A stretch of DNA of 64,000 nt from Branchiostoma floridae. Taxonomy: Eukaryota > Chordata > Leptocardii > Amphioxiformes > Branchiostomatidae. The stretch lies in assembly GCF_000003815.2 (NCBI RefSeq), contig NC_049989.1, forward strand, positions 11,425,273 to 11,489,272. The letters are read 5' to 3'. A program made the translations under genes and the position numbers. Shown here one piece after another: positions 3,273 through 20,600 of this stretch. The notes beneath the pieces were generated by a model. It worked only from the letters and a program-made list of their open reading frames with translations. It did not search any database and had not been told where the DNA came from. Positions within the stretch are counted from its first letter, which is position 1. Each line of letters begins with the position of its first letter.

Positions 3273-6200
3273 CTACTTCTTGTACTCGATACGCTCCACC
3301 TTTACATCGTCCCCAATCAGCTGGTACACGTACGTCACCACTGTGGTGGCCTGGATGTCCATCAGTACAAACGATGGTGTTACACCACTACAGGGGAGAA
3401 AAAAACAGCTGTCAAAAAAACTACATGTACAAGTAGGTTGGGGCCTGGATGTCCATCAGTACAAACAATAGTGTTACACCACTACAGGGAAGAGTAGAAA
3501 ACAGTTGTTAGAACAAACTACATGTACAAGTAGGATGTCCATCAGTACAAACGATGGTGTTACACCACTACAGGGAAGAGTAGAAAACAGTTGTCAGAAT
3601 AAACTACATGTACAAGTAGGTTGGGCCTGGATGTCCATCAGTACAAACAATAGTGTTACACCACTACAGGGAAGAGTAGAAAACAGTTGTTAGAACAAAC
3701 TACATGTACAAGTACACATGTAGGTTGGGACTGGATGTCCATCAGTACAAACGATGGTGTTACACCACTACAGGGAAGAGGAGAAAACAATTGTCAGAAC
3801 AAACTACATGTACAAGTAGGATGTCCATCAGTACAAACAATAGTGTTACACCACTACAGGGAAGAGTAGAAAACAGTTGTTAGAACAAACTACATGTACA
3901 AGTACACATGTAGGTTGGGACTGGATGTCCATCAGTACAAACGATGGTGTTACACCACTACAGGGAAGAGGAGAAAACAATTGTCAGAACAAACTACATG
4001 TACAAGTAGGATGTCCATCAGTACAAACGATGGCGTTAAGCCCCATTTACAAATCAAGAATTTAGCTCGGCCGAGTTGTTGGCGAGCTCCAAATGGACAT
4101 TTTCGGCCGGAGTATGACCGGCGTTTTGGTGATTATGCGGACCTCGACCGATTTTTAGCAGCTCGGCCGGCGTTTGCGGGGCAGTTCGGCCTGCGCTTAA
4201 TTTCAGCGAGGCCTCGGCGGGTCAATGGGTTGCCTGTAGCTCGACCGGAGCTTGTCCGAGCAATGGCCAAGACTTGGCCATTACTCGGGCGGCAACCCGA
4301 CGGTTTTTGAATCTCTCTTTATCGGTCGGAGTTTGCCCGAACTCTTCTGCCTCGCGCCAGACTCGTTCTGGCTTCCTGCAATAACCGGACGATATTCCGT
4401 CCGACTTTTAACAAGTTTGGCGTGCTTTGGGAGAGCGTTGTGTTGGTGTCGCTGGGAGCTCGGAAGGACTTCGTCAGAATTTTGACTGTCACCTAATCAA
4501 TTTGACACCAGTGTTGAACATGTGCCTTTGTTTTGGGCTTTTGTCTTTAGTAAACAGTTTGTTCCGAAAAATAAGATAAATAAAGACTACTGTATGAACT
4601 TAAGAAAGCTGCGTACCTTTTATAATGTAAGGCAATTGGACACGAAAACAGTACTTCATATTTATTTTTTGCTGTAGGTTTGAATGTGTGAGATCATATA
4701 TTCTTCATTTCTGAAGGCTTCCAGTCTGAAACTCGGACGGCCTTTGCCGGCCTTCGCTCGAGGTTCGCCAAAGGTTCGCCCGAAGTTCGCCCGATTTCAG
4801 CTTTGTCCAAATTATTGTATTATGTTGAATAAGACTGGTCTGTTCACTTTGTGGCTCTTGTGGTAGTTTTTGGATTGGTGTATCACAACATTCCTGTTGA
4901 TATTATTGTTTTCAGTGTGCTCGTCCACTCCACTCATGCTCTACATATATCCCGCAACTCAGAAATTAGATTTGACACAAATATTAGCTTTTTACAAGGT
5001 TAGTCAGTTCTGACTTCGTCCATGTTTAAGACATAGTACAATATCATTAACAAATTATAATCAGTTGTCTTGGACGGACGTCGGACGGGCTCCGTTCATT
5101 TGTAAAGGGGGCAGATTTTCAGCGAAAAATACAGCCGATACTCGGGCGATGTTGACATTCGGCGAGCTCTGACCGAGCTGCAAATTCGGCCGGCGTCCGC
5201 ATGAATTGTAAAGCCGGCTTTACACCACTACAGGGAAGAGTAGAAAACAATTATCAGAACAAACTACATGTACAAGTAGGATGTCCATCAGTACAAAAAC
5301 GATGGTGTTACACCACTACAGGGAAGAGTAGAAACCAATTGTCAGAACAAACTACATGTACAAGTAAGTTGTCCATCAGTACAAAAACGATGGTGTTACA
5401 CCACTACAGGGATGAGGAGAAACCAGCTGTCAAAACAAACTACTGTACATGTACAAGTAGGTTGGATGTCCATCAGTACAAACAATGGCGTTAAAAAAAT
5501 TAAAGCTGAAAACAGCCTTGATGTAGTTCAATTTATTTCAGCCTATGGGAAATTGTGAAGTTCAAAATGTGTACTGAATTCTAAAATTGTAGCAAACTGG
5601 CAATCAAAATAAATCAATTATAAATTCATATAGTCCAATACCCATGAAAACAAATATGATTCTAGTATGTTGTATATGCTTAGGTTGCTATTTATTAAAA
5701 CTAACCTAATTCAGCGAGTGTAACAGGCTGCAATGTTGTTTCAGCATATCTATGTATTTATGTATACTGGTATGTATGAATAAAAGGACTAGGTAGGTAC
5801 GCAGGTAGGTATGAATAAAAAAAAATCACTAGTACTTGCAAGGAAGGTGAAATCTGCTCCACAAGCAACAATGAGCTTTTCTGGACAAAGGCTGATTATA
5901 ACGCCATAAATGAGGAGTCTTGTTATTTGTATCATACTAAAGAAGTGTTCAGTAACAATGCCATACCTGTCTAGTGCATTGTATGCTCCTGTTGCTGTTC
6001 CTGGGTTGATGTAAAACTTGTTTTCATGTTCAAAAGCCTCAAACTTGTGGGTGTGTCCAGATATCAAGATGTCCACATCCAGCTGTCTCTGTACCATGGC
6101 TAAACTCTCAATGTCACCCCACGGAACAACCTGTTGTAGACAATTCATTATGTATACGAGTTTGGGAAAAAGCGAAATTCTTCTGGGACGTATGGGCCAT

Positions 6201-8437
6201 CATGTTGACTCACAAGTCAGTAAATAACTGTCACAGAAACCTATTTGTAGCCTCGCCAACTGCCTATACTGGGCTCGAAATATTTTTTTCTGCATACCTG
6301 CACTGGTGGCATTGAAAATTACCTGCGCCACACAAACTTTACCTGCACCAATCTGAATTTAGGAAGTATGGATCATACTGAAATTGTTTAGGGACCATTA
6401 TTTTATACTTTATAGGTGGTAGCAGTCAATGCAGCTAATAACAATCTACATGCACCTACACCATAGGATATTTCACTATAAAACCTAGAAATGGACCTGT
6501 GCAGGTTAGGTGCAGGTAGACACCAGAAATACCTGCACAGGTCCAATTTTACCAGCATTAACCTGCATATGCAGGTGATATTTCGAGCCCTGCTATACAA
6601 TATACCTTGAGGAGGCTCTGCTAAACTGGGCTGAGATTACCACTTTTGTGGGCGTGGCCTCTAACCAGCTGTCAGTCAGACTCTGAGATTCAGCCTCACC
6701 AAAAGAAAACATTTAGGCAGTAATCTGATTGGCTGACAGTAGTTGGAGGCTACGCACACTAAAGTGGAAATCTCTGCCTATTTAAGCAGAGCCTCAGCAA
6801 GGTATATTGTATACTAGTAGGCCACTGGCAAGTATCTGCATAGGAAAATGTTGAAACCAAGCATGATATTGATAAAGAGCTACCAACATACAACACAACA
6901 CCAAAGATGCAGCAGGATACTACAAACAATACATAACTAAGAGAGGACCAGCACTACTAATAATGTTTAAAAGAGTTTTGGGGGGTACCTGATGCCCATG
7001 GCAAAGTCCTATCTTGAACTGTCCAACTGTGACGACCTTCTGTTCCGGATAACTTAGGTTCTGAAACAATGATAAAGGGAAAAAAATCATAGTAAACACT
7101 GCTGAAAAGAATACTTGGAATAGTGCATTTGTGAAGGCTAGATATCCAGGCAAACAATATTCAAATATAATTCAATGTTTACAACTGGATAAAAATGGAG
7201 ATTTACTTTCGAATGTTTTGACTGACATCCATCACTCATCTTCTAGCGACGCTGAAGAAGAGTGATGGTGTCACTTGAAACATCTGGAAGTAAATTTCGA
7301 TTTTTATCCAGCTGTAGAGATTGAATTGTATTTAAACTTGGAAAAGTGTTGTTACTAGGGAAAAAAGAACGCCTTGTTTCTTAGTTGCTAAACCTTCCAT
7401 TTGGAAATCCACAAGTTTGACAATAGCCTTTTTAGATGCCATAGTCGGTTCAGTTAAAGTACAGACACTAATATTTGAACATTACCTCATCAAAGTCCCC
7501 TTTAACAACATGGACATCACTGGCCAATGTTTTCAGGTAGTCGAAGGACTCCTTTGTGCAGAGGTTGCCCGTACAGAGGATGTGTTGGATCTTTCCTGGG
7601 ACCAGCAGTTTCTTAAACTTGGCCGGCATTCCATTGGACCGGTAAGGAATGTGTAAGTCTCCTAGTACAAGAACCAACTGGAAAAGGAAACAGGTTGCGA
7701 TCAGATTTCTGTTTGCATCTACCCAGTAGACTTCTTATAATGTCTGCACTGGCCACAACGCAGAATAGAAGAGGAAACAACAACATACCAAACCTATATT
7801 TCTCAACTACTGTGTCTTTTGCCATCTGCATATTATATTTCTACAGCACAATGCAATTACCTTCAATATTGGGATGAACACTTTTCCTCTATTTGTGAAA
7901 ACATATTTCTTCCCTTTATGTTCCACTTGTCTGACAATATAAACTGTAAACCAGACGACTATGTAATTGTTTAGATTCATAATTTCACATTTCCACTTGA
8001 AAAATATCTGTCTTCTTCTTTCTTTTGAGGCCACCGACTTCATTTATAACGTTACTTGACTTGAAGTGAAGATTCTGTAGCCTACATTCTGTAGTCTTAT
8101 GTCACACTACACAGTCACAGTCTGACAGCAACCCTATGTATAGCTATCCGTACGACGCACTAGCTGTGCCATTACTTAGTGGAATACATTAGTGACAATC
8201 TAGTGTGTTCAGTGCGAGTCATATGACTTCCTTCCTGTTTCTCTGCGCTCGTGCCCCTCCCCTTAGCAAATGAATAGGCCCTAATATCTCACATTACAGA
8301 AAGTTCTTCCAATTTCTGCATCTCTCCATGAAGAAGATTTATTCTCTATACATTCTAGAACCAATATACAGACAATAAAATCCACGACATTTGCGAATAA
8401 TAGGTAATTTCGCCAAACATTTGCCACAACTCACCAT
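3273..8437 (-). CDS. VPS29: Vacuolar protein sorting-associated protein 29 (retromer subunit)
   Basis: VPS29 is a subunit of the retromer complex on endosomes, where it binds VPS35 and supports endosome-to-Golgi and endosome-to-plasma-membrane recycling. Five exons on the minus strand: 8435-8437 (only the ATG, followed by a GTGAG donor), 7486-7677, 6989-7060, 5967-6130 and 3273-3387. They join in frame to 546 nt, 181 residues, against 182 in human. The metallophosphoesterase-type fold motifs are visible: GDLHIP (residues 7-12), CTGNLC near 41, GDFDE (61-65), GHQV near 88 and [21 protein letters not shown] near 113. The tail ends VERIEYKK. A start codon alone in exon 1 matches the vertebrate gene. 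The intron before the last exon contains a tandem array of partial copies of that exon. The gene shares a promoter with RAD9. Confidence 0.97.
3340..5500 (-). repeat. Tandem array of partial VPS29 terminal-exon copies with splice acceptors
   Basis: Units of about 86-104 bp repeat GATGTCCATCAGTACAAA near 3355 (the true exon), 3449, 3535, 3631, 3735, 3821, 3925, 4011, 5280, 5366 and 5467, with a part unit at 5222. Read on the minus strand, most units contain CCCTGTAG followed by codons for [12 protein letters not shown], that is the 3' splice site plus the first third of VPS29 exon 5. Units alternate between two subtypes, with ACGATGGTG or ACAATAGTG on the + strand. Two units near 5300 and 5385 have a 2-base insertion that would shift the frame to a stop. 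The last unit near 5467 has lost the acceptor. Confidence 0.95.
4039..5219. mobile_element. PIF/Harbinger-like non-autonomous element inserted in the VPS29 array
   Basis: A 1181-bp GC-richer block splits the tandem array. The ends are AGCCCCATTTACAAATCA and, reverse-complemented, AGCCGGCTTTACAATTCA, an imperfect inverted repeat. TTA flanks both sides (4036-4038 and 5220-5222). Removing the block with one TTA restores the normal repeat sequence GCGTTACACCACTAC. A TTA duplication is typical of PIF/Harbinger. No transposase frame is seen. Confidence 0.8.
5501..5966. other. VPS29 intron 4, unique part
   Basis: AT-rich intron sequence between the array and VPS29 exon 4. A short GTA-rich run (GTAGGTACGCAGGTAGGTA) lies near 5793. 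Nothing else is supported. Confidence 0.5.
6269..6592 (+). mobile_element. MITE, CAGGGCTCGAAAT family, copy 1
   Basis: The ends are CTGGGCTCGAAATA and its complement TATTTCGAGCCCTG, flanked by a 5-bp direct duplication CTATA (6264-6268 and 6593-6597). The inside is built of many ACCTGCAC / GTGCAGGT motifs in both orientations around a conserved core with ATCATACT and ATACTTTATAG. It sits in VPS29 intron 3. Confidence 0.85.
6596..6830. mobile_element. Foldback MITE
   Basis: The left arm (ACAATATACCTTG, AGGCTCTGCT, then GGGCGTGGCCTC) recurs as an imperfect reverse complement at 6733-6828 (GAGGCTACGCACAC, AGCAGAGCCTCAGC, AAGGTATATTGT). The element abuts copy 1 of the CAGGGCTCGAAAT family. There is no coding frame. 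Confidence 0.65.
7165..7340. mobile_element. Foldback repeat in VPS29 intron 2
   Basis: Two arms of roughly 80 bp are inverted: ACTGGATAAAAATGGAGATT, then CATCCATCACTCATCTTCTAG, opposite GAAGAAGAGTGATGGTGTCA and AAATCGATTT-like sequence ending CCAGCTGTAGA. The loop contains GCGACGCTGAAGAAG. Other repeat classes share the CTGAAGAAG..GATG signature, so the family is not assigned. Confidence 0.55.
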
Positions 8438-8674
8438 TTTGGCAGGATCTGTTCTCGATACGCTTACACGCATGCGGAGGTCAAAGTGCAATATTTTATA
8501 AAACCTCGATTTCTATTGGTCAGAATTTTATCAAAGTAACCAATGGCGAAAAGGTTAATGGAACACATTTGGAGAGTGAAAAAAAATGGCGCCGAACTCA
8601 AATTTTGGAGCTTATGGTCGAGACTGATTTCTTGAGATGTTTCTTCGCTTCTTCAGACCCAGTGTGCAGTAAAA
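8438..8674. promoter_or_regulatory. Bidirectional VPS29/RAD9 promoter
   Basis: Only 237 bp separate the VPS29 ATG (minus) and the RAD9 ATG (plus). The interval has CCAAT boxes in both orientations (TATTGGTC near 8515 and AACCAATGG near 8540), an NRF1-like half palindrome CGCATGCGG near 8469, and ATGGCGCC near 8586 that resembles YY1/E2F sites. No TATA box is seen. This is a typical layout for a shared housekeeping promoter. The site names are by resemblance to consensus only. Confidence 0.75.
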
Positions 8675-11600
8675 ATGAAGTGCATCATTCCAGGAACTAA
8701 TATCAAAGGTAAATGTAGAGCTTCTGTTGTCTGAAAGTTTGTTTTTATGCTTATATCGTTTTTATCGAAAAGATGTTGCCTGTTTTGATGTTCCCGGACT
8801 TTTGAGTATCATGACAGATTTTCCCCAAGATTCCACTTATGCCTGGATAAGTGAATGATGACAATCGAAATAAACTTGTATTACTGAATACATGGTAAAT
8901 ATAGAAAATATACATGATCTTTGTCTAAAAGATGAGATGATATTTTCTGTATATAATGTTATAGAGATACTTCCCAAGTTGAGCTTATCTATGTCTATGG
9001 AATTTTACTGTGTACAGTGTTTGGCAAGGCGATCCATTCCTTATCAAAAATAGGAGAGGAGTTGTACTTGGAACCACTCGAACATGGGGTAAGTTAGTTA
9101 TTTTTGTTTCCAAATTTGCATACAATTACTAGTACTAGTCCATATTAATCCGGCTGATAACATAAGATCATCCGATTTGTATTGTATATTGCAAGCTGCA
9201 TTTCTGGACAGATTTATAAATAGTTCTAGTTCTTGCATTTGATTTCCAATACTGCTTGGCATTTGTTCGTCTTGATTTGACAGATGCCAGTTAGTATCAA
9301 ATTACAATTGGATGCTCTTTTAAAGGTATACATGATATAAACAATGTTTAATTCCATGTGCCAAGGAGCTTTTATCAGATAAAAGATATCTGATAAAAGA
9401 GCTATGTAAGCGTGCCACACAGCACGTTTCGACGGCGTCAAAAGTGCACAGGAAACACGCAATGACGGCAGTCCCAAGGTGCCATATTGGGTACCCACAA
9501 CGGCTGTTTCTTACGGTCTCAACATTGACAAAGGGCACAAACAGTGGACTATACTCGGTCACAAAATAGATTAACAATCATACTTTACGATCTTTTGGTT
9601 TCTATGAACGACAGAGCTTACGAAAATACCGAAGTTGCCAAGTTCGTACGGAGCGCCTGTCAGAACTTGCGAGCGCGGATCTTGAAGATCGTTCAACTAT
9701 CCCGTCCTGAAAATAAATAAAAACAGCACCAAAACTATAAACTTTTCCACTTCTTATAATCTTCAGATGTCATAGTTATGATTTGCTTCGCAGAATCTGC
9801 CAGTAAACCTGCGAAAAACCTGCAGGTACCGCCGATCTCGGCTCGGTGCTCGGCACGGAAAAATCCGCCGCCATGATGGATTTGTGGGACAGAAGCTAGC
9901 CTCTTATTGCGACACAAACGATACGGCGATACGGCGACACAGCGTGAGTTGTCTGCATACGCCAAGCTCAGGGTCTTTTTTGAGTCCGGAGATTTTGGGA
10001 CATAAAGCTTGAAGTGTCCGCAATTGATTATGCTTAGTAGTAGTATGTTTATGAATGACGTGTTTTCGCACAATAAAGTATTAAAAAGCATGCACGAGGA
10101 ACTCAAAACACGCCGTCGCCACGTGTCCCTCAGCACGTCAAGACGTGCTGAGCTGCACGCTGTGACTGAAGTTTGGTGAAAGTGTAGTGACTATGGACTT
10201 TCCTGTTACAGTTTTGAGGCATTAAAGTAAGGGCTCAAAATTGTCACAGCGCATTGCAGGCCGCATTTTCAATATAGTCACGGAACAAATCCATTAAATA
10301 CAGGTAAGTACTGTAGTTGTACAATAATGATATGATAATAATAGCCTTTATTGCACATTCATATGTTGTGCGACTACCGATCGTCGACCGTCCTCCAGTG
10401 CGGTGCTGCACACTGTGATGGCCGAGCTCTTTCAGGTACAGCATTTCGCTCTTATTTCTAGACACTAGTATTCCTCATTATTTCCATTTGACATTTGATT
10501 TGCGATGTTGTAGTAATTAGAACTTTATTTTCTTGTTGCTAGTTATGTTGCTAAAAGTACATTTTGAAATTTCTTTATCGTTTGTTATACTCTGCCGTTA
10601 TCATGCGCGGACCCGCACGCTTTAACGGCTGCACGGAAACTCACCGCAGCAGGTTGCAATCATATTTTTGAAATGATAAATTTCGTCCTTTGATTAGCGA
10701 CCAGAAAATGATAGAATTTTTTTTATTCTTGCTAGTCATTCTGTTGCTAAAAGACATTTTCAAGTTTTTAAAGAGTTTTTGATCGTTTGTTATATCATGC
10801 CGTTATCATGTGCGGACCCGCACGCTTTGACGCTTATACGGAAACTCAACGACAAAACGTTGTAATAATTACTATATATTTTTCATTGGTAAGTTTCGTC
10901 CTTTAATTAGCGATCATAGAATTATAGAAAATTTGTCCTATTGTTGCTTGTCATTATGTGCTAAAAGACANNNNNNNNNNNNNNNNNNNNNNNNNNNNNN
11001 NNNNNNNNNNNNNNNNNNNNNNNNNNNNNNNNNNNNNNNNNNNNNNNNNNNNNNNNNNNNNNNNNNNNNNNNNNNNNNNNNNNNNNNNNNNNNNNNNNNN
11101 NNNNNNNNNNNNNNNNNNNNNNNNNNNNNNNNNNNNNNNNNNNNNNNNNNNNNNNNNNNNNNNNNNNNNNNNNNNNNNNNNNNNNNNNNNNNNNNNNNNN
11201 NNNNNNNNNNNNNNNNNNNNNNNNNNNNNNNNNNNNNNNNNNNNNNNNNNNNNNNNNNNNNNNNNNNNNNNNNNNNNNNNNNNNNNNNNNNNNNNNNNNN
11301 NNNNNNNNNNNNNNNNNNNNNNNNNNNNNNNNNNNNNNNNNNNNNNNNNNNNNNNNNNNNNNNNNNNNNNNNNNNNNNNNNNNNNNNNNNNNNNNNNNNN
11401 NNNNNNNNNNNNNNNNNNNNNNNNNNNNNNNNNNNNNNNNNNNNNNNNNNNNNNNNNNNNNNNNNNNNNNNNNNNNNNNNNNNNNNNNNNNNNNNNNNNN
11501 NNNNNNNNNNNNNNNNNNNNNNNNNNNNNNNAGAAAAATTGTCTTATTGTTGCTTGTCATTATGTTGCTAAAAGACATTTTCAAGTTTCTTTAGAGTTTT

Positions 11601-14600
11601 TTTATCGTTTGTTATACACTGCCGTTATCATGTGCGGACCCGCACGCTTTGACGCTTATACGGAAACTCAACGGCAAAACGTTGCAATACACACTAGACT
11701 CAACGTGCACACATGCAATACTAAACAAATCAACATTTATTGAAGTTTTGCTTTCACAGGCGCAATAGTAGAAAATATACAAAGCCACGAACTACTAGTA
11801 CTACTGCTACTTCTACTACTACATACATACATACAGACTAGATGATAATGGAAACTACATACAATACTCATAAAATTGATGTACAGCACAGAATACAGAA
11901 ACTTAATGTTAGAACTTAATAGTAAATAGTTAACAAGTGGAACAAAGTTATTCATTATGCCTTTTTACACAAACAATTAACAGTTGACAATTAACCGATT
12001 AAAAAAAGACATTTCTCTAAAATCTAACAAACATGAAATCTTACTCATATACAATACGGAATACATAAACTTAATGTTACAACTCAACAATTATCATTGT
12101 CCTACAAGTCCAACTTCCTGGTCCGTTTTCTGGTCCTCGATGTTCGGCGTGGCGACGTCTCTGCGGCTGGAGCTGTTGTGGGAGGGACGGAGGGCATGGA
12201 CGGCGGAATTGAGTGGGAAGCTCGAGCTACTCGTTTTCTACACCTTGCAGGCTGTCTCAAGATTCTTTTCACCGACCTAGAGGACGCTGCCTTCGGCGGT
12301 GGGCAAGTGACATCTCCGGTGGTGTCCTGGCCGTTCTCCCCGGTGGTGTGCTGGCCGTTCTCCCCGGTGGTGTCCTGGCCGTTCTCCCCGGTGGTGTCCT
12401 GGACGTTCTCCCCGGTGGTGTGCTGGACGTTCTCCCCGGTGGTGTCCTGGTCGTCGTGCGTGGCGATGGGCTGGGTGTCGGCTATTTTAGACCAATGATG
12501 ACTTGCATTAATGTTGGTACTATTCTATGCTAGCAAATTAGAAGAAATCACATACAAATACTGTAAATTCCAGCAGCATTTACTACAAGTACTATTAGTT
12601 TAATTTTCAACATTACTAAGAAACGAGAAGCCAAACAAATGTATCATAATAGGTTTTGAACCCATGTTTTAGATTAGTCTTAGGACTGTGTAATAAAGGC
12701 CATTATCATTATTAAGTATTAGAAAGAAATAAACCCACCAAGGAGATGCTCCAGTCCATAGTGCTGGTAGCACCGACGTAAAGTTCCACGCAGGAAGGAT
12801 GCCCAGCTTCTGGTCTTCTTCTGCTCCGGTGTTCTCGGGTCAACACTCAGCGTGTAGGAGACGTCGGGGTCCCAGAACTGCCACCGGGCCCCGTCCTTCC
12901 CCCATCGCGGCTCCCGTTTGGTGGTGATGCGGATGGCTGTCCGAACGAGGGCACGCAAGCCCTCCATGTTCATGACCTCTAGTCCACATACTTCTTTCCT
13001 CAGATCTGGTAGGTCAGGAGTGGCTGATTCTGTCTCCTCTCCGACAGTCCTCGCTGGCTCCAAGTTGCTCTGTTGTCCTGACGGTCTTTTCGCATGGAAG
13101 CCGTCCATGATCGCTGGCAGATGATCCAAGAGGGCTTCTCTTAGGCACGCCGTTCCCCAGTGAACGAATCGGGGTTGATGCGTGTTCTTGTCTGGAACAC
13201 ACGCAAGGATCACGACATCATTGCCGCCATCAACAAGCGCCGATGCCCTTTTCTCCAGTGATGTCCATTTCCGAAAGTTGCGTACTGTCATGTGCTCCGT
13301 CATGGTGATATTGTTCTAACTAGTTGCTGAACTAGTACATCATTTTATAGCAAACTTCAAAAAGGTTCTCCGAAATGACATGATGCTTACACCGCGTGTA
13401 CTTCCTTTGATCATGGTAACTACTCCATCTTCATTTGATCATGGTAAAAGGTCAATCATGATAACAATTTTTTTTGAGATCTGATTATGATAACAAGTCC
13501 ATTGTCAAGAATAAAAGATTGTCGGACAGCTTTGCCAACGACGCATTTTCTAAAAAAATTGTTCCGTTGTTTAAAGCGACGCCGCAATGTTGTCTGTGTG
13601 TTCCGAAGGACACGGATCTGTCCACAATCACTACCCAAAGGGAAACTGTATGAATAGGTACTTTTACTGTATGAATAGGTAATATTTGTTATGTACGCTT
13701 TTACCGCCACTGTAAGCCATAAGACCCGTGCTCCTATGTATGACGTCAAAGACTGCAAACCCCCGAAACAAAACGATTACAGTCACTTTGTTCACAATCA
13801 TGATCAGCGAATCGGTTTCATGACAAGTGCATCCCTTCTACCCCAAGGAGGTAGTTTGCAAGTGAACCGTGTTTTTTTTTCGAGAGAACTGTTTAGCTTT
13901 TCCGTTTAGATCAATGCCGTGTAAAAGGGCCTTCTTTGTCCCGTCGGCGCCATGTTTGTTTGGATAATTAGCGCACACCATTATTTCAAATTGATATGGT
14001 TTAATCGTCGACTTTAGTAGGTCGATTCATTTCTTAGCTCCCAAATTTCTTAGTATACACTTTTCTATGTCAAGCTGCAGTAAACTTTCATGTTTACTTC
14101 ATCCAAAGAGTCATGAATGTATCAAAGCACACTGTATTTCGGAAGATTTCAGCCGGTTCAACCGGACCTAAATAAACAATCCCCCTGTATATTTACTTTG
14201 TCTTAGGTGCACTAATTGTCCGCCATTGTTCTATCGGCTTTTGGAAACAGGTATACTAGCATACAACTACCATTAACAAAAAAATAGGAATGCAGTCAAG
14301 TCTACACGTTGTGGTAGAATAATGTAGTATTAGCTTACTTGTTTCTCATTCACACACGCACACACGCCGAGCTCAATCGGAAGTTTTCGTTCTAACCAAG
14401 GAGGTTAATCAGCCAAGTGTTCCAACACACTACTTTCACCTCATTTCTTGTATATCTCTCGTTCAAGTGAAGAAAACAAAGCCTCTTGAGATTTTTATAC
14501 TGTTTATTAATGAAATCAAATTATGTACAATCACAAATACAAGTTGACCATATTTTGAGCACTATAACACATGCTGTTACACTTTTACTCTAGACGTTTA

Positions 14601-17600
14601 CATATGCTGTTTGTTTACTATGTTTCAATTCCACAATATTAAACATGATACCATAATTACTCCCAAGATATTTCTAGCTGCTGCTGTTTGTCTATATTCT
14701 TGAATGCCAGGAAAAGTGCAGCGTTGAAGAGGAATTTGCTCTGAGTCATGTACGCCAGCTGGGCCTTGATGCGTTTCAATCCTGCGTTAGCCTGCTCGTT
14801 GATTTGGGAGTTTATTTGCTGTACGTCGATGGAACCATGTTGTCCGTAAGAATCCATGCAGTAACCGTCGCTGCATCCGGTGTGGTTTATCCAATGTAGC
14901 CGATCAACGCAGAAGAGGGTGTTCATGAAGAATACGGGCTCCCTGTGAGAGGAAGAACAAATGCGCTCAAGTCATACGATTGATTTCACGGAAGCATAGC
15001 CATAGAAAACCAAGATATAAATTACAATAATCAGTCAATCAGACCTAGCAGGGACGACAAAGGAATATCCAGGCTTTAATATATTTTTGGAAGTGGCCAT
15101 GTACGTGGCGCACTAGTATTTATTTGTCAACCATTTGATCGTACTGTAATTTCAAAAAGTAGAAGCAGGTACAATGTAGTAAAAAAACACTTACCTGTTG
15201 AGACAGTACTGGTGAAGACGACATGCATTGTCGTACACAACCACCCGCGGCGCCCGATTGAAGCGACCTATCAGTATCTCGAATGGATGCCGTGGAGACT
15301 CGTGACTCTTCAATATTGTGAAGTCATAGCAGACTCCGTGTTGGCAGAACATTGTGAATATTCCANNNNNNNNNNNNNNNNNNNNNNNNNNNNNNNNNNN
15401 NNNNNNNNNNNNNNNNNNNNNNNNNNNNNNNNNNNNNNNNNNNNNNNNNNNNNNNNNNNNNNNNNNNNNNNNNNNNNNNNNNNNNNNNNNNNNNNNNNNN
15501 NNNNNNNNNNNNNNNNNNNNNNNNNNNNNNNNNNNNNNNNNNNNNNNNNNNNNNNNNNNNNNNNNNNNNNNNNNNNNNNNNNNNNNNNNNNNNNNNNNNN
15601 NNNNNNNNNNNNNNNNNNNNNNNNNNNNNNNNNNNNNNNNNNNNNNNNNNNNNNNNNNNNNNNNNNNNNNNNNNNNNNNNNNNNNNNNNNNNNNNNNNNN
15701 NNNNNNNNNNNNNNNNNNNNNNNNNNNNNNNNNNNNNNNNNNNNNNNNNNNNNNNNNNNNNNNNNNNNNNNNNNNNNNNNNNNNNNNTGAGTGGTCTATT
15801 TGTAGCATTCCACAAAGTGGGCCGTTCTTCGCCAACTCACCTAAGAATTTTTTATATGGGTTGGGGGCTATCCGGTGGGATCCGTTGCGACTCAACCTCT
15901 CCAGCAGAGTAGCCAGTGATGAAAGATGTGGGGTAGTCGACAGTGAACTCAACAGTTCACGGTACTGCTGGGCTGACAGCGCACTGGGTCGTCGTGCTTT
16001 CCCTCTTTTCTTCTGACTTGGGCTCACTCCCGCGAACTGGGACAGGAAGACGCGAGCCTGAGGGATTGGTAGGAAGACGCGTTCTTCATGGTCACTTCCC
16101 TTAACTTGCAAAGACGACTGCTGTGTCTCTCGATTGGACTCATGGTTGATCAAATCCTTTCTGAAGCCAAGCGATGTTCCGTCACAGATGATGACATCGG
16201 GACTTCCTTTGCACACTGGGCACTGAAATGATGTCTGCCAGTTTATATCCAGTAGATGTGAAAAGCTGTCCCAGGCGCGGCGCATCTTGTGGAGCGGAAG
16301 CACATCCCCCTGTCCAAGTGCACGGACTTGACGTCGGTAGGCTCGGTGGAAGGCGGCTAAGGGATTCCTGGCTTCCAGCATTAGGTGGAGGTACCGGAAG
16401 AGCATGGAGTAGGCGATCAGATCCTTGTTATTCAAGTTGAAGAGGAGATCCTCTTGTCCATCATACGGAAGCACACATCTGCAGTCGCCAGTGCAGATTC
16501 TGTAGAAAACTAAATGGAAATAAAGCTCAGTTAATTTGTTGTAATGAGGTAGACGATTTAATTGACCCACGAGACAACGACACATATGATTAAAGAAAGT
16601 ATCTGTTTACGATACTTTGTAAACAACAGATGGATGTAAGGTCATGTTGAGAGTAAAAATATTACATACAAAGAAATCACAAACGTTTGTTTACTATACT
16701 GAAATTAAGCTTCATAGACATTTCAATAGTTATTGGAGGACGTGGTGCAAAGTCTTACCTTTAATGGCTTTCAGTTCTCCATCGGCGTTTGTGTGTTGAA
16801 ATGAACACTGCTCTGTGTACACCGTCACAGTCTCGTCGTAACACCATCCTTTTTCGATTGGGTCGGCACTATCCCAAGCACAATTGTTGGGACAATGCGA
16901 GTCAGGTATGCCGGGCACAAGATTCTCTGGAACCGCAAATAGGCCCGAGTCGTACTCCTGTTGAAGTTCACGTAAGTCATCCGGGAGGGGATATGGTATT
17001 GGTTGCCATGACTTAGCAGACGGCAGTGCCGTCGGTGTCTCGCTTCCGTCATCCATGGGTTCATCTATACCCTCTTCTCGAAGCCATTCCCGATATGCGG
17101 TGACATGACGACAGCTCCGCACGGCGTAGTCGCAAGTAAGGCAGTGCAGATATCGCTGACGTCTAGTTGCTCCAACAACGGCCTTGCCTCCGTCACACGA
17201 GATCAATGCAATCAGCGGCTCTGCTCGTATGAAATGAACATTGTTGCCGTTATTTTCCTCTGCCTCGTCCTCTTCCTCCATTTCGTCGTTGCCTTGTCCT
17301 GGAGCAACACCAGGCTCTTCTTCAAAAGAGCTAGTCATACGGCAGTGGATGCAGTAAGCACCCTCCTCTCTGCAGATAAACTCTTCGAAATCTTCCGTGA
17401 CTTTTCTACTTGTTTCATATAGACGATGTTGTTGGCTACTAGCTTCTCGGCAGGAACAGATCCAGAAGGTATGAGTGAAACCGGTCACACTTGTGAAAGA
17501 TGTGTCCATTTTTTCAACAACTACGTACTTTTCTTTTAGTTTGTTTCCATTCCAATCGCGAATTACCCATACCTTCACACCATCTTGAAGTTGCACTTCA

Positions 17601-20600
17601 AACATCTCGCCTTCTGTCCTCAGCATCATCTTATATGTGGCCAGGGGATCACTCACAGTCACAGATGTACTGGCTGCTTCGAAGTTCAGCCGCTGACGCT
17701 TTCCTCTTGCATCCGATCCTGTGCTGTCTCTTGACCTCTTCTGGCTTGGAGTGCGCGGGTGGCCGTCACGCCCTCTCATGAAACTGAACTTGGCCCTCGG
17801 CGTCTTAGCTTTTATAAGCCTTCGATCTTCCATCGTTTCTAACTTTCCCAAATGGGACTGAGGTACAACACTTTTTCTCCGCCTTTTATACCCTTCGGTC
17901 GACAGATGAACAATGGAAATCGGTCAGAGCGCCCTGCTACGATGAGATCCTGCTTTCCGATTGGTCATTGCACCAAAACGTAACAATAAAGAGGTCAGTG
18001 CAGGGCACCCTACCCTTAAATCGTGATGTAAAATCAGTCGGAGCGCCCTGAGATCCTGCTTTCCGATTGGTAACCACACCGACTACGTAACAATGAGGTC
18101 GGTGCAGGGCGCACTTTCCTTAAATGTGGAAAATCAGCCAGAGCGCCCCGAGATCCTGCTTACCGATTGGTAACTACACCAAATACGTAATAATGAGGTC
18201 GGTGGCAGAGCGCACTAACCTTAAATCGTGATGTAAAATCAGTCAGAGCGCCCTGAGATCCTGCTTTCCGATTGGTGCACTACACCAAAGTGCGTCGGTG
18301 GCAGAGCGCCCTAACCTTGAATATGGAAACTACAGTAAGAGCGCCCTGAGATCCTGTTTTCCAATTGGTGCACTACACCAAAATGCGTCGGTGGCAGCGC
18401 GCCCTAACAGCCTAACCTTAAATGTGGAAAAACGGCGCACGTACTGGGATCCTACTTACTACATTATGACGTAATAATGAGGTCTCACAACGTCTCTGAC
18501 CTTCTATCCAACTTGTGTTTTATTGCGGGATCCATAAGACTGTTCTAGAACGTACAACGAGAGTTACGAGACTGAAACGTCTCCTTGGGTATGACATGGT
18601 TCTACAGGAAGCACTATTGCTGTCCGGGAATTTAAGATCTTATGCAAAATTTTAACGTCACAGCGTGCCAATGGGCACCCTGTAACGGTGTCATGCCTCA
18701 TGGCGTCATCGCGTACGTCTGGACACGGAGCGACGGGGCATGGAGTTGCATGCTGCTTAGCATGTAGCATCGGAATTTTTGGAAGTTAATTCAGATGCTG
18801 GGGTTGTACCGGCAAAAGTCAGCTGTTGAAAAATTTCTCATCGTCATGTAACTGAAAGACAAGCAGTAACCCACCCATTCAACCCACCCATTCCTTCTTC
18901 CCACCGCACCGTCGAAGTGTGCGTGGGGGGCACACTATAACGCAGCGCCGATAATGACCGTTGGGGATTCTAAACGACATTCTTGCAGAAACCTGGCACT
19001 TTTAGCAAAGTCTTGTATACGTAAAATACCCTTATCTAAATCTTAGAATTATAACAGAAATATGCTACACCTTAACCAGTTCACCATCAGTCCACGAAAC
19101 TTCAACGTCACAGCGTGCAGCTCAACACGTCTTGACGTGCTGAGGGACACGTAGCGACGGCATGAGGAAAGTTCCTTTTAAAATGCCTTTTGATATTTTA
19201 TTGTGCGAAATTAAAACACATAATTCATAAACATACTACTACTACGTATAAATAAGCTTTTAGTCCGAAAATCTCCGTGGTGACGGACTCACAAAAACAA
19301 AAAAAGACCCTGAGTTCGGCGTATGCAGACAACTCGCGCGTGTCGCCGTATCGTTTGTGTCGCAATAAGAGGCTAGCTTCTGTCCCACAAATCCATCATG
19401 GCGGCGGATTTTTCCGTGCCGAGCACCGAGCCGAGATCGGCGGTACCTGCAGGTTTTTCGCAGGTTTACTGGCAGATTCTGCGAAGCAAATCATAACTAT
19501 GACATCTGAAGATTATAAGAAGTGGAAAAGTTTATAGTTTTGGTGCTGTTTTTATTTATTTTCAGGACGGGATAATTGAACGATCTTCAAGATCCGCGCT
19601 CGCAAGTTCTGACAGGCGCTCCGTACGAACTTAGCAACTTCGGTATTTTCGTAAGCTCTGTCGTTCATAGAAACCAAAAGATCGTAAAGTATGATTGTTA
19701 ATCTATTTTGTGACCGAGTATAGTCCACTGTTTGTGCCCTTTGTCAATGTTGAGACCGTAAGAAACAGCCGTTGTGGGTACCCAATATGGTACCTTGGGA
19801 CTGCCGTCATTGCGTGTTTCCTGTGCACTTTTGACGCCGTCGAAACGTGCTGTGTGGCACGCTTACATACCTGGATAAAAGCTCCTTGCATGTACTGTTC
19901 TTTGCTGTCTTCCCTCCAGCTGGCGCTACGTACTGTCAATGCTGCCAGGTCAGCGTATGGCTGTTTCATCTTCGCACCCGAGTTCTTCTATCACTATGAC
20001 GACAGCTCAGGTGGTACAGAAGGAGAGATGGAAGATGTCGAGGAGACGTTCAAGTGTAAGATACAGATGAAGGTAAGGTTGTTGAATGGACCACTGAATC
20101 AATCCTTCACAGGGCTCAAAATACTTTTTTCTGCATATACCTGCACTGGGTGCAGGTAACATTGAAAATTACCTGCATCAGACTAATCTTACCTACACCA
20201 CTTTGAGTTTGAATTTAAGAAGTATGGATCATACTAAAATTGTTCTGGAACCACTGCTATTTTTCTTTTATACTTTATAGATGGTAACAGTCAATGCAGC
20301 TAATAACAATCCACATACACCTGCACCATAGGATATTATGTATAAAACCCAGTACATGGACCAGTGCAGGTTAGGTGCAGGTAGACACCAGAAAAGAAAT
20401 ACCTGCACAGCTCCAATTTCACCTGCACTAACCTGCACATGCAAGTGGTATTTCGAGCCCTGCTTCAGGTACTTTTACATGATCAACATGTTTAGTCCTT
20501 GCATTTGGCCAAAGAAGATACTTTTTACAATCATGTATTTGGCAGATATCTCACCAGTGCTACAGCCATGTGATATACATGTATCAAAAGGAAAAATTAA

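Follow-up and report, generated by a model that had tools for sequence, protein, structure and literature searches.

The window, which is the whole stretch of 64,000 nucleotides of Branchiostoma floridae DNA that was analysed (C11:11425273-11489272 of a 513-Mb genome in 431 contigs), contains an autonomous-type KDZ DNA transposon with a lineage-specific second gene for a PF10491 protein. We consider it somewhat better than an even chance (a probability of about 0.55), judging from the comparisons described below, that this NRF1-like protein works as an accessory factor on the repeats of its own element, either to activate it or to counter its silencing, as plant VANC proteins do. The positions of the genes, repeats and ends are listed in Table 1.

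Table 1. Parts of the KDZ transposon and their positions in the window
Feature	Position	Strand	Basis
Whole KDZ transposon, 10,474 bp	9400..19873	.	Ends common to other copies; 8-bp target site duplication at both borders
Left target site duplication GATAAAAG	9392..9399	.	Sequence
Right target site duplication GATAAAAG	19874..19881	.	Sequence
Left terminal inverted repeat	9400..10166	.	Outer 534 bp 99% complementary, inner pieces 89-93%
Right terminal inverted repeat	19107..19873	.	Pairs with left repeat
Subterminal repeats, ~215-bp units; 10971-11531 reads N	10518..11690	.	Sequence, other copies
Conserved core, unit 1 (TGCGCGGACCCGCAC at 10604)	10595..10628	.	Repeat alignment
Conserved core, unit 2 (dyad GTGCGGACCCGCAC at 10810)	10800..10833	.	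Repeat alignment
Conserved core, last readable unit (dyad GTGCGGACCCGCAC at 11632)	11622..11655	.	Repeat alignment
NRF1-like gene, predicted exon 2: tandem 8-aa peptides (DTTGENGQ type, DNA 12316-12454) and basic C-terminal tail	12102..12481	-	Splice model, repeats
NRF1-like gene, predicted intron, GT-AG, 257 bp	12482..12738	-	Splice model
NRF1-like gene, predicted exon 1: dimerisation and DNA-binding domain	12739..13303	-	PF10491 64.1 bits; 8k4l E 7.7e-11; splice model
Transposase, C-terminal exon	14657..14971	-	58% identity to C19 KDZ transposase; 81-84% to C9 copy
Transposase, middle ORF with CxC4 cysteine cluster; 15366-15787 reads N	15191..16606	-	PF18717 26.9 bits; relatives
Transposase, N-terminal ORF (stop to stop; first Met ~17833)	16730..17923	-	Open reading frame; relatives
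Tandem repeats of ~100 bp with ATTGG boxes, just upstream of the transposase ORF	17943..18408	.	Sequence

The transposon and its two genes

The NRF1-like gene sits inside the terminal inverted repeats of the KDZ element. The stretches 9400-9933 and 19339-19872 are inverted and 99% complementary, and shorter arms of 89-93% reach inward to 10166 and 19107. The best-matching other copies start at the same point, with the ends AGCTATGTAAGCG and CAGGTATGTAAGCG, and variants of these ends are found in more diverged copies. Target duplications of 8 bp are a stated trait of Zisupton in the available text of PMC12730594, and such duplications are present here. They are perfect at two insertions, the window element (GATAAAAG twice) and a 3.8-kb copy on C17 (CTAAAATC twice), and the flanks of a third insertion, an 11.2-kb copy on C1 (TGTAGGTG and CGTAGGTG), are alike in 7 of 8 positions. 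Because the three insertions have three different duplications, these ends have moved. By eye, a clean target duplication was not found at the 0.77-kb copy on C14. The neighbours of the window element are a VPS29-like gene on one side and a Rad9-domain exon on the other.

At least three open pieces on the minus strand, between 17923 and 14657, make up the transposase, and the NRF1-like gene lies downstream on the same strand. The CxC4 domain of the transposase (KDZ-associated, PF18717) scored 26.9 bits, which is exactly equal to the cut-off. The visible KDZ piece at 15191-15364 scored 15.1 bits, under the cut-off of 26.6, and the adjoining masked stretch reads N. An unmasked relative at C19:9728990-9730249, located within an open frame of 434 amino acids, scored 30.2 bits against the same KDZ cut-off; its identity to the two C-terminal transposase pieces of the window is 65% and 58%. 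The KDZ family membership of the window transposase therefore follows only through this homologous C19 transposase. The VYDNAC and NEQANAG blocks, which we take to be part of the KDZ acidic catalytic residues, are visible in the transposase, and the N stretch covers the expected site of the first acid. The tandem repeats with ATTGG boxes are a probable promoter.

The preliminary description had claimed that this element carries a two-exon gene of the NRF1/EWG type, in which the landmarks of the NRF1 domain are kept in order. In the predicted model, which is derived from sequence only, the gene is open, encodes 314 amino acids and ends in a stop. The exon 1 frame matched the PF10491 (Nrf1_DNA-bind) profile over positions 51-211 of 213 with an E value of 2e-17 and 64.1 bits (cut-off 23.5), so the profile search gave a strong match instead of none. 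In single-sequence phmmer comparisons with the solved human NRF1 chains 8k3d and 8k4l, the E values were 6e-11 and 7.7e-11, respectively. WGKDG, FWDPDV, RT-x-EQK and SW...LR...CYQHYG align with WGKES, WWPEDI, RTEEQK and SW...LR...CYKQHG of human NRF1, and the claim is borne out in the class of the protein, the predicted exon structure and the landmark order. The mean pLDDT of a single-sequence AlphaFold2 model of the exon 1 frame was 36, too low for the model to be of use.

The number of exon 2 peptides varies among copies. No stop interrupts the parts of exon 2 that were read in the C1b and C17 copies, nor the sequence flanking a masked stretch in C1 on both sides; a frame break in the tail of the C323 copy counts against the best reading. 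Comparison of the gene with an older, broken C11 sequence gave dS 0.49 and dN 0.13 over 59 codons, and a second comparison, again with such C11 sequence, gave dS 0.73 and dN 0.24 over 60 codons. The excess of synonymous change would fit a protein that has been in use along the lineage. Pattern searches of viral contigs for the protein yielded two pattern stretches, neither of which encodes a relative.

Subterminal repeats and the proposed role of the NRF1-like protein

The stretch from the left end to the NRF1-like gene contains, inward of the left inverted repeat, repeat units of ~215 bp. In 23 units from five copies, the block TGCCGTTATCATG[CT]GCGGACCCGCACGCTTT is invariant in 29 of 31 columns; the units were picked by an anchor outside the core, and their effective number is smaller because the copies are related by descent. 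TG[CT]GCGGACCCGCAC occurs in 22 of these units, and the remaining one has a C-to-T change. The word GTGCGGNNCCGCAC has 19 sites in the 513 Mb, 17 of them in this element family, and the reversed control pattern has 11. This count shows that the word is rare elsewhere; its abundance in the family is itself by descent. Within the window, TGCG-N4-CGCA is found in two places, both in the subterminal repeats, and its arms and spacing are as in TGCGCATGCGCA of NRF1, a likeness that we noticed only in hindsight. The 9,488 readable bases of the element contain 12 TGCGC half-sites, compared with 22 in 52,987 bases elsewhere in the window, a difference that base composition may partly explain.

The diverged relatives that were fetched showed no dyad apart from one lone TGCGGAACCGCA at C19 that is compatible with chance. 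We considered the dyad as a signature common to both transposon subfamilies (A, that of the window, and B, described below) and rejected it; the candidates were this C19 TGCGGAACCGCA, which is inside the intron of the gene, and one unlike TGCGACAACGCA in L050.

We propose that the NRF1-like protein would dimerise through its NRF1-type domain, and that the dimer would bind the subterminal repeats of its own element, with the core around the dyad GTGCGGACCCGCAC as the likeliest site. The repeat-rich, basic tail may recruit partners or spread the activity. The element would thereby stay transcribed and unsilenced, and the protein might also help to assemble the ends for transposition. The binding loop would have been rewired away from GCGCATGCGC, the site of host NRF1. 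Retention of the same gene pair in several related elements points to an element that controls itself through a borrowed gene switch.

TnpA of Spm is a transposon-encoded protein with a comparable accessory role, and the VANDAL elements of plants, whose VANC proteins provide the closer comparison, are Mutator-like. According to the available text of PMC5735166, VANC proteins of Arabidopsis VANDAL elements are sequence-specific for short motifs in tandem non-coding repeats, contain tandem peptide repeats, and give specific activation or anti-silencing of VANDAL elements. The window element resembles this system in encoding a protein of a DNA-binding family and in having a family-specific motif in tandem non-coding repeats, which the protein would bind. 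It differs in that it belongs to another transposon superfamily and its protein has an NRF1 domain. By analogy, the KDZ lineage might have made a factor for self-recognition out of the fold of a host master regulator, NRF1; the NRF1-like protein and the tandemly amplified dyad might have co-evolved away from the host site and might constitute an animal counterpart of VANC anti-silencing; we put this forward tentatively, as an extension that may well not hold.

The main rival explanation is that the protein is a subunit or end-binding helper that brings the KDZ transposase to the ends and does not act on transcription. In the preliminary description, it was suggested that the protein directs the transposase to its ends or drives its promoter, and both are possible, as the repeated dyad would fit either. 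The location of the repeats inward of the left inverted repeat, their retention in the non-autonomous C17 copy and the presence of a KDZ transposase match upstream of the NRF-like gene in nine loci argue for a transposition helper. However, the dyad repeats are on one side of the element only, and the other side has different repeats. Moreover, the short C14 copy has the ends and lacks the repeats (100 of the fetched bases are masked), a finding that we also counted against the best reading. A helper role of this kind is unlikely in our judgement, with an appreciable chance left to it.

Copies of the element and recurrent pairing of the two genes

A protein search of the genome returned the window gene and a copy on C1, followed by older, mostly broken relatives. 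In this second insertion (C1:25361816-25373043), exon 1 is open and 99% identical to that of the window. The C1 gene (C1:25365060-25365653) has 198 open codons, with two synonymous and two non-synonymous differences from the window gene. Exon 1 is present in two of the five fetched copies with a readable left end and repeats, namely the window and C1 copies; the other three are C17, C323 and C1b. The C17 copy is a non-autonomous form with an internal deletion, which has lost exon 1 and the transposase and kept the repeats. The matches of C323 and C1b end at ~12454 and ~12653, respectively, and C1b is masked where exon 1 would follow. A copy on C13 consists of the right end and a 100-bp piece of the transposase only. 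Among the family copies fetched, which were few and in which the C1 transposase is largely masked, no whole transposase was found without the NRF1-like gene.

The preliminary description had looked to other copies with the same gene as support and to copies lacking it as the mark of a chance insertion. Copies with the gene exist as the second insertion on C1 and as older, mostly broken forms beside related KDZ transposases. Those fetched copies that are readable without the DNA-binding exon are also without the transposase, except for the 100-bp piece on C13, and none of them marks a chance insertion.

Among the matches listed, 9 of 18 NRF-like clusters (host excluded) have a KDZ-transposase match at most 6 kb upstream on the same strand. 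A match upstream on the opposite strand within 6 kb was found for none of them, and one downstream on the same strand for a single cluster. The clusters were formed from 23 NRF-like rows joined at 8 kb on one strand. The rows came from 19 with E up to 0.1, of which three overlapping ones were left out, and 8 with E up to 0.01, of which host NRF1 on C5 was left out. The transposase matches, including weak ones (E up to 0.01), were joined at 8 kb into 39 clusters, and the cluster counts are lower bounds, as the best candidates were scored. The limits of 6 and 8 kb were chosen by us after the positions had been seen; with a limit of 6.4 kb, a divergent pair at C19 would add one case on the opposite strand. 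KDZ-profile matches were left out of the pairing pool, and most of the extra places that they mark are KDZ transposases with no NRF-like match nearby. In the transposon-rich region of C9 at 0.3-1.77 Mb, 6 of 11 clusters were paired, compared with a permutation mean of 0.49, and 0 of 20,000 permutations reached 6.

The nine clusters with no upstream transposase match include C1:25365060, where the transposase part reads N. Conversely, about 30 of the 39 KDZ-transposase clusters had no detected NRF-like neighbour among the matches listed, which counts against the best reading. Among them is the 66%-identical transposase at C16:6266306. The NRF1-like gene is thus a trait of part of the KDZ lineage, or it has been lost or has decayed in the rest.

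A second, diverged group of NRF-like genes, subfamily B, was found first at C19:9720313 with a PF10491 score of 39.1 bits. The C19 gene has a possible N-terminal exon, which has no Pfam match, and a different tandem-peptide frame and a basic tail are found nearby. The gene and the KDZ transposase at C19 are divergent and 6.3 kb apart. No terminal repeats were found in the 16 kb read; the gene and the transposase probably constitute one element.

These data bear on the explanation that a host gene fragment was captured by chance and is passively carried with no function for the element. The broken state of most older copies and the many KDZ-transposase clusters with no such neighbour would fit it. 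Against it stand the same open exon 1 in two insertions, the single order and strand in nine loci, the synonymous bias, and the diverged NRF-like gene of subfamily B in the vicinity of the C19 KDZ transposase. We regard passive capture as improbable, and a chance insertion is not indicated because the gene is open in the second insertion as well, with 99% identity, and the pairing recurs in 9 of 18 clusters.

Relation to host NRF1 and to known KDZ elements

Host NRF1 on C5 was the single locus found in the genome and was matched in five places as exons, unlike the transposon, in which the NRF1-type domain is in one exon. NRF1 is a methylation-sensitive activator (PMC9729108, available text). 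In the NRF1-DNA structure, as described in the available part of PMC10810270, three residues read TGCGC, R206 being responsible for the TG step and N242 and R244 for the remainder. We set the residue numbers on the phmmer alignment, and G220, G223, W224, K253 and W258 then fall as they are named in that part of the article. By this alignment, the transposon protein keeps one of the three base-reading residues, R206, and has N242 and R244 replaced; both are replaced in each of the five transposon sequences whose alignment covers the site, namely those of the window, L056 and three B copies. The placement of the gap in the loop is uncertain, yet there is no N or R at the places of N242 and R244 in the window protein. 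The protein is, on this comparison, a member of the PF10491 domain family and not an equivalent of NRF1. In NRF1, N242 and R244 read the outer CGCA and R206 reads the inner TG. The dyad has kept this CGCA but not the TG, and the protein has kept R206 but neither N242 nor R244. The bases retained in the dyad are those whose reading residues are lost in the protein, so that NRF1 does not fit on the dyad in any simple register, a point against the best reading.

Mimicry of host NRF1 as a means to enter active promoters, another proposal of the preliminary description, is not upheld by these replacements. In such a scheme, the protein would lead insertion into active, NRF1-bound promoters. The location of the window element between the VPS29-like gene and the Rad9-domain exon agrees with this, as does a weak NRF1-like motif (two mismatches) at 8467, ~0.9 kb from the element end. 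However, this insertion context is an anecdote of one insertion, and copying of the host NRF1 target is unlikely, since two of the three base-reading residues are replaced in the alignment. We rate host mimicry, too, as improbable. The exact NRF1 consensus GCGCATGCGC is absent from the readable window; with up to two mismatches, it is found in seven places, four of them within the element.

Among known systems, the element resembles the Zisupton type of KDZ (Kyakuja-Dileera-Zisupton) elements in its KDZ-related transposase, the associated cysteine cluster and the 8-bp target duplications (PMC12730594, available text), and differs in its second gene of the NRF1 family. Fungal KDZ elements carry a TET/JBP second gene (same text) and are thus alike in having a second, chromatin-related gene; that cargo is a dioxygenase in a fungal host, whereas the cargo of the window element belongs to a DNA-binding transcription-factor family, in an animal host. 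In fish, an F-box is found in one isoform of the Zisupton protein and in fusions in fish genes, and there is an association with CxC7 (PMC12062965, available text), so host-type domains are tied to KDZ elements there as well. The F-box is within the Zisupton protein isoform, whereas the window has a separate NRF1-domain gene, and NRF1 is unmentioned in the available main text of that article. In the literature searched, the scope of which was set outside Repbase and subscription papers, no KDZ element with NRF1-family cargo was found. With NRF1, erect wing and P3A2, the window protein has the dimerisation and DNA-binding domain in common; it is set apart from that family by the replaced residues, the single-exon domain, the repeat-rich tail, its mobility and an identity of 36% to the host protein in the DNA-binding part.

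An accessory factor of the kind that we favour, acting on the repeats of its own element, would be a lasting NRF1-fold cargo. Such cargo provides a way to ask how transposons gain transcription factors of their own, how a factor of this type escapes the host binding site, and whether animals have transposon-encoded anti-silencing as plants do. The diverged NRF1-fold sequences are also useful for the question of the origin of NRF1. Over the DNA-binding part, the window sequence (A) is 36% and the B sequences are 43-51% identical to host NRF1, and the sequences fall into three separate groups, namely subfamily A, subfamily B and host NRF1. This grouping would be compatible with the reverse direction, in which a KDZ accessory gene of the present type gave rise to host NRF1 by domestication, but the comparison is unrooted and covers one eukaryotic genome. 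The host gene is old and constrained, as its identity of 85% to human NRF1 over 95 aligned residues in the DNA-binding part indicates, and we regard this explanation as very improbable.

Host genes around the insertion

The KDZ element is flanked by host genes, with a VPS29-like gene on the left and a Rad9-domain exon on the right. Two apparent short exons at about 8675 and 9020 of the window seem to resemble the N-terminal part of Rad9. Because these apparent exons and the Rad9-domain exon bracket the element, it may have inserted into a Rad9 intron, close to a presumed divergent VPS29/Rad9 promoter. A weak NRF1-like site (8467-8478; two mismatches to the consensus, both strands) is located approximately 0.9 kb from the element, within this presumed shared promoter.

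Features of the element, its surroundings and related loci
Feature	Position	Strand or orientation	Remarks
VPS29-like exons	window 5789-7734	-	left of element; 7468-7734 matches PDB VPS29, E 1.6e-35
Rad9-domain exon	window 19914-20075	+	right of element; Pfam Rad9, 38 bits
Tandem repeats, ~100 bp	window 17943-18408		immediately upstream of transposase
Miniature copy, 0.77 kb	L048 (C14:5292502-5293269)		little beyond the element's two ends
NRF-like gene and KDZ transposase, contig C19	L049 3551-5875 and L073 3948-5252	divergent	

Repeats in the element

The tandem repeats contain ATTGG boxes and inverted AGGGCGC/GCGCCCT pairs, and the array is likely a promoter or a second protein-binding array.

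Related copies in the genome

A second NRF-like gene, itself diverged, lies at the C19 locus; its frames are open and its peptide repeats are of a different kind (PTAHRT type). In divergent orientation to it is a KDZ transposase whose frame is open over 434 aa. No terminal repeats were found there in 16 kb. On contig C9, the region at approximately 0.3-1.77 Mb is crowded with old remnants of NRF-like and KDZ-transposase sequence and holds 11 of the 18 NRF-like clusters (host NRF1 excluded); it is perhaps a transposon refuge, such as heterochromatin.
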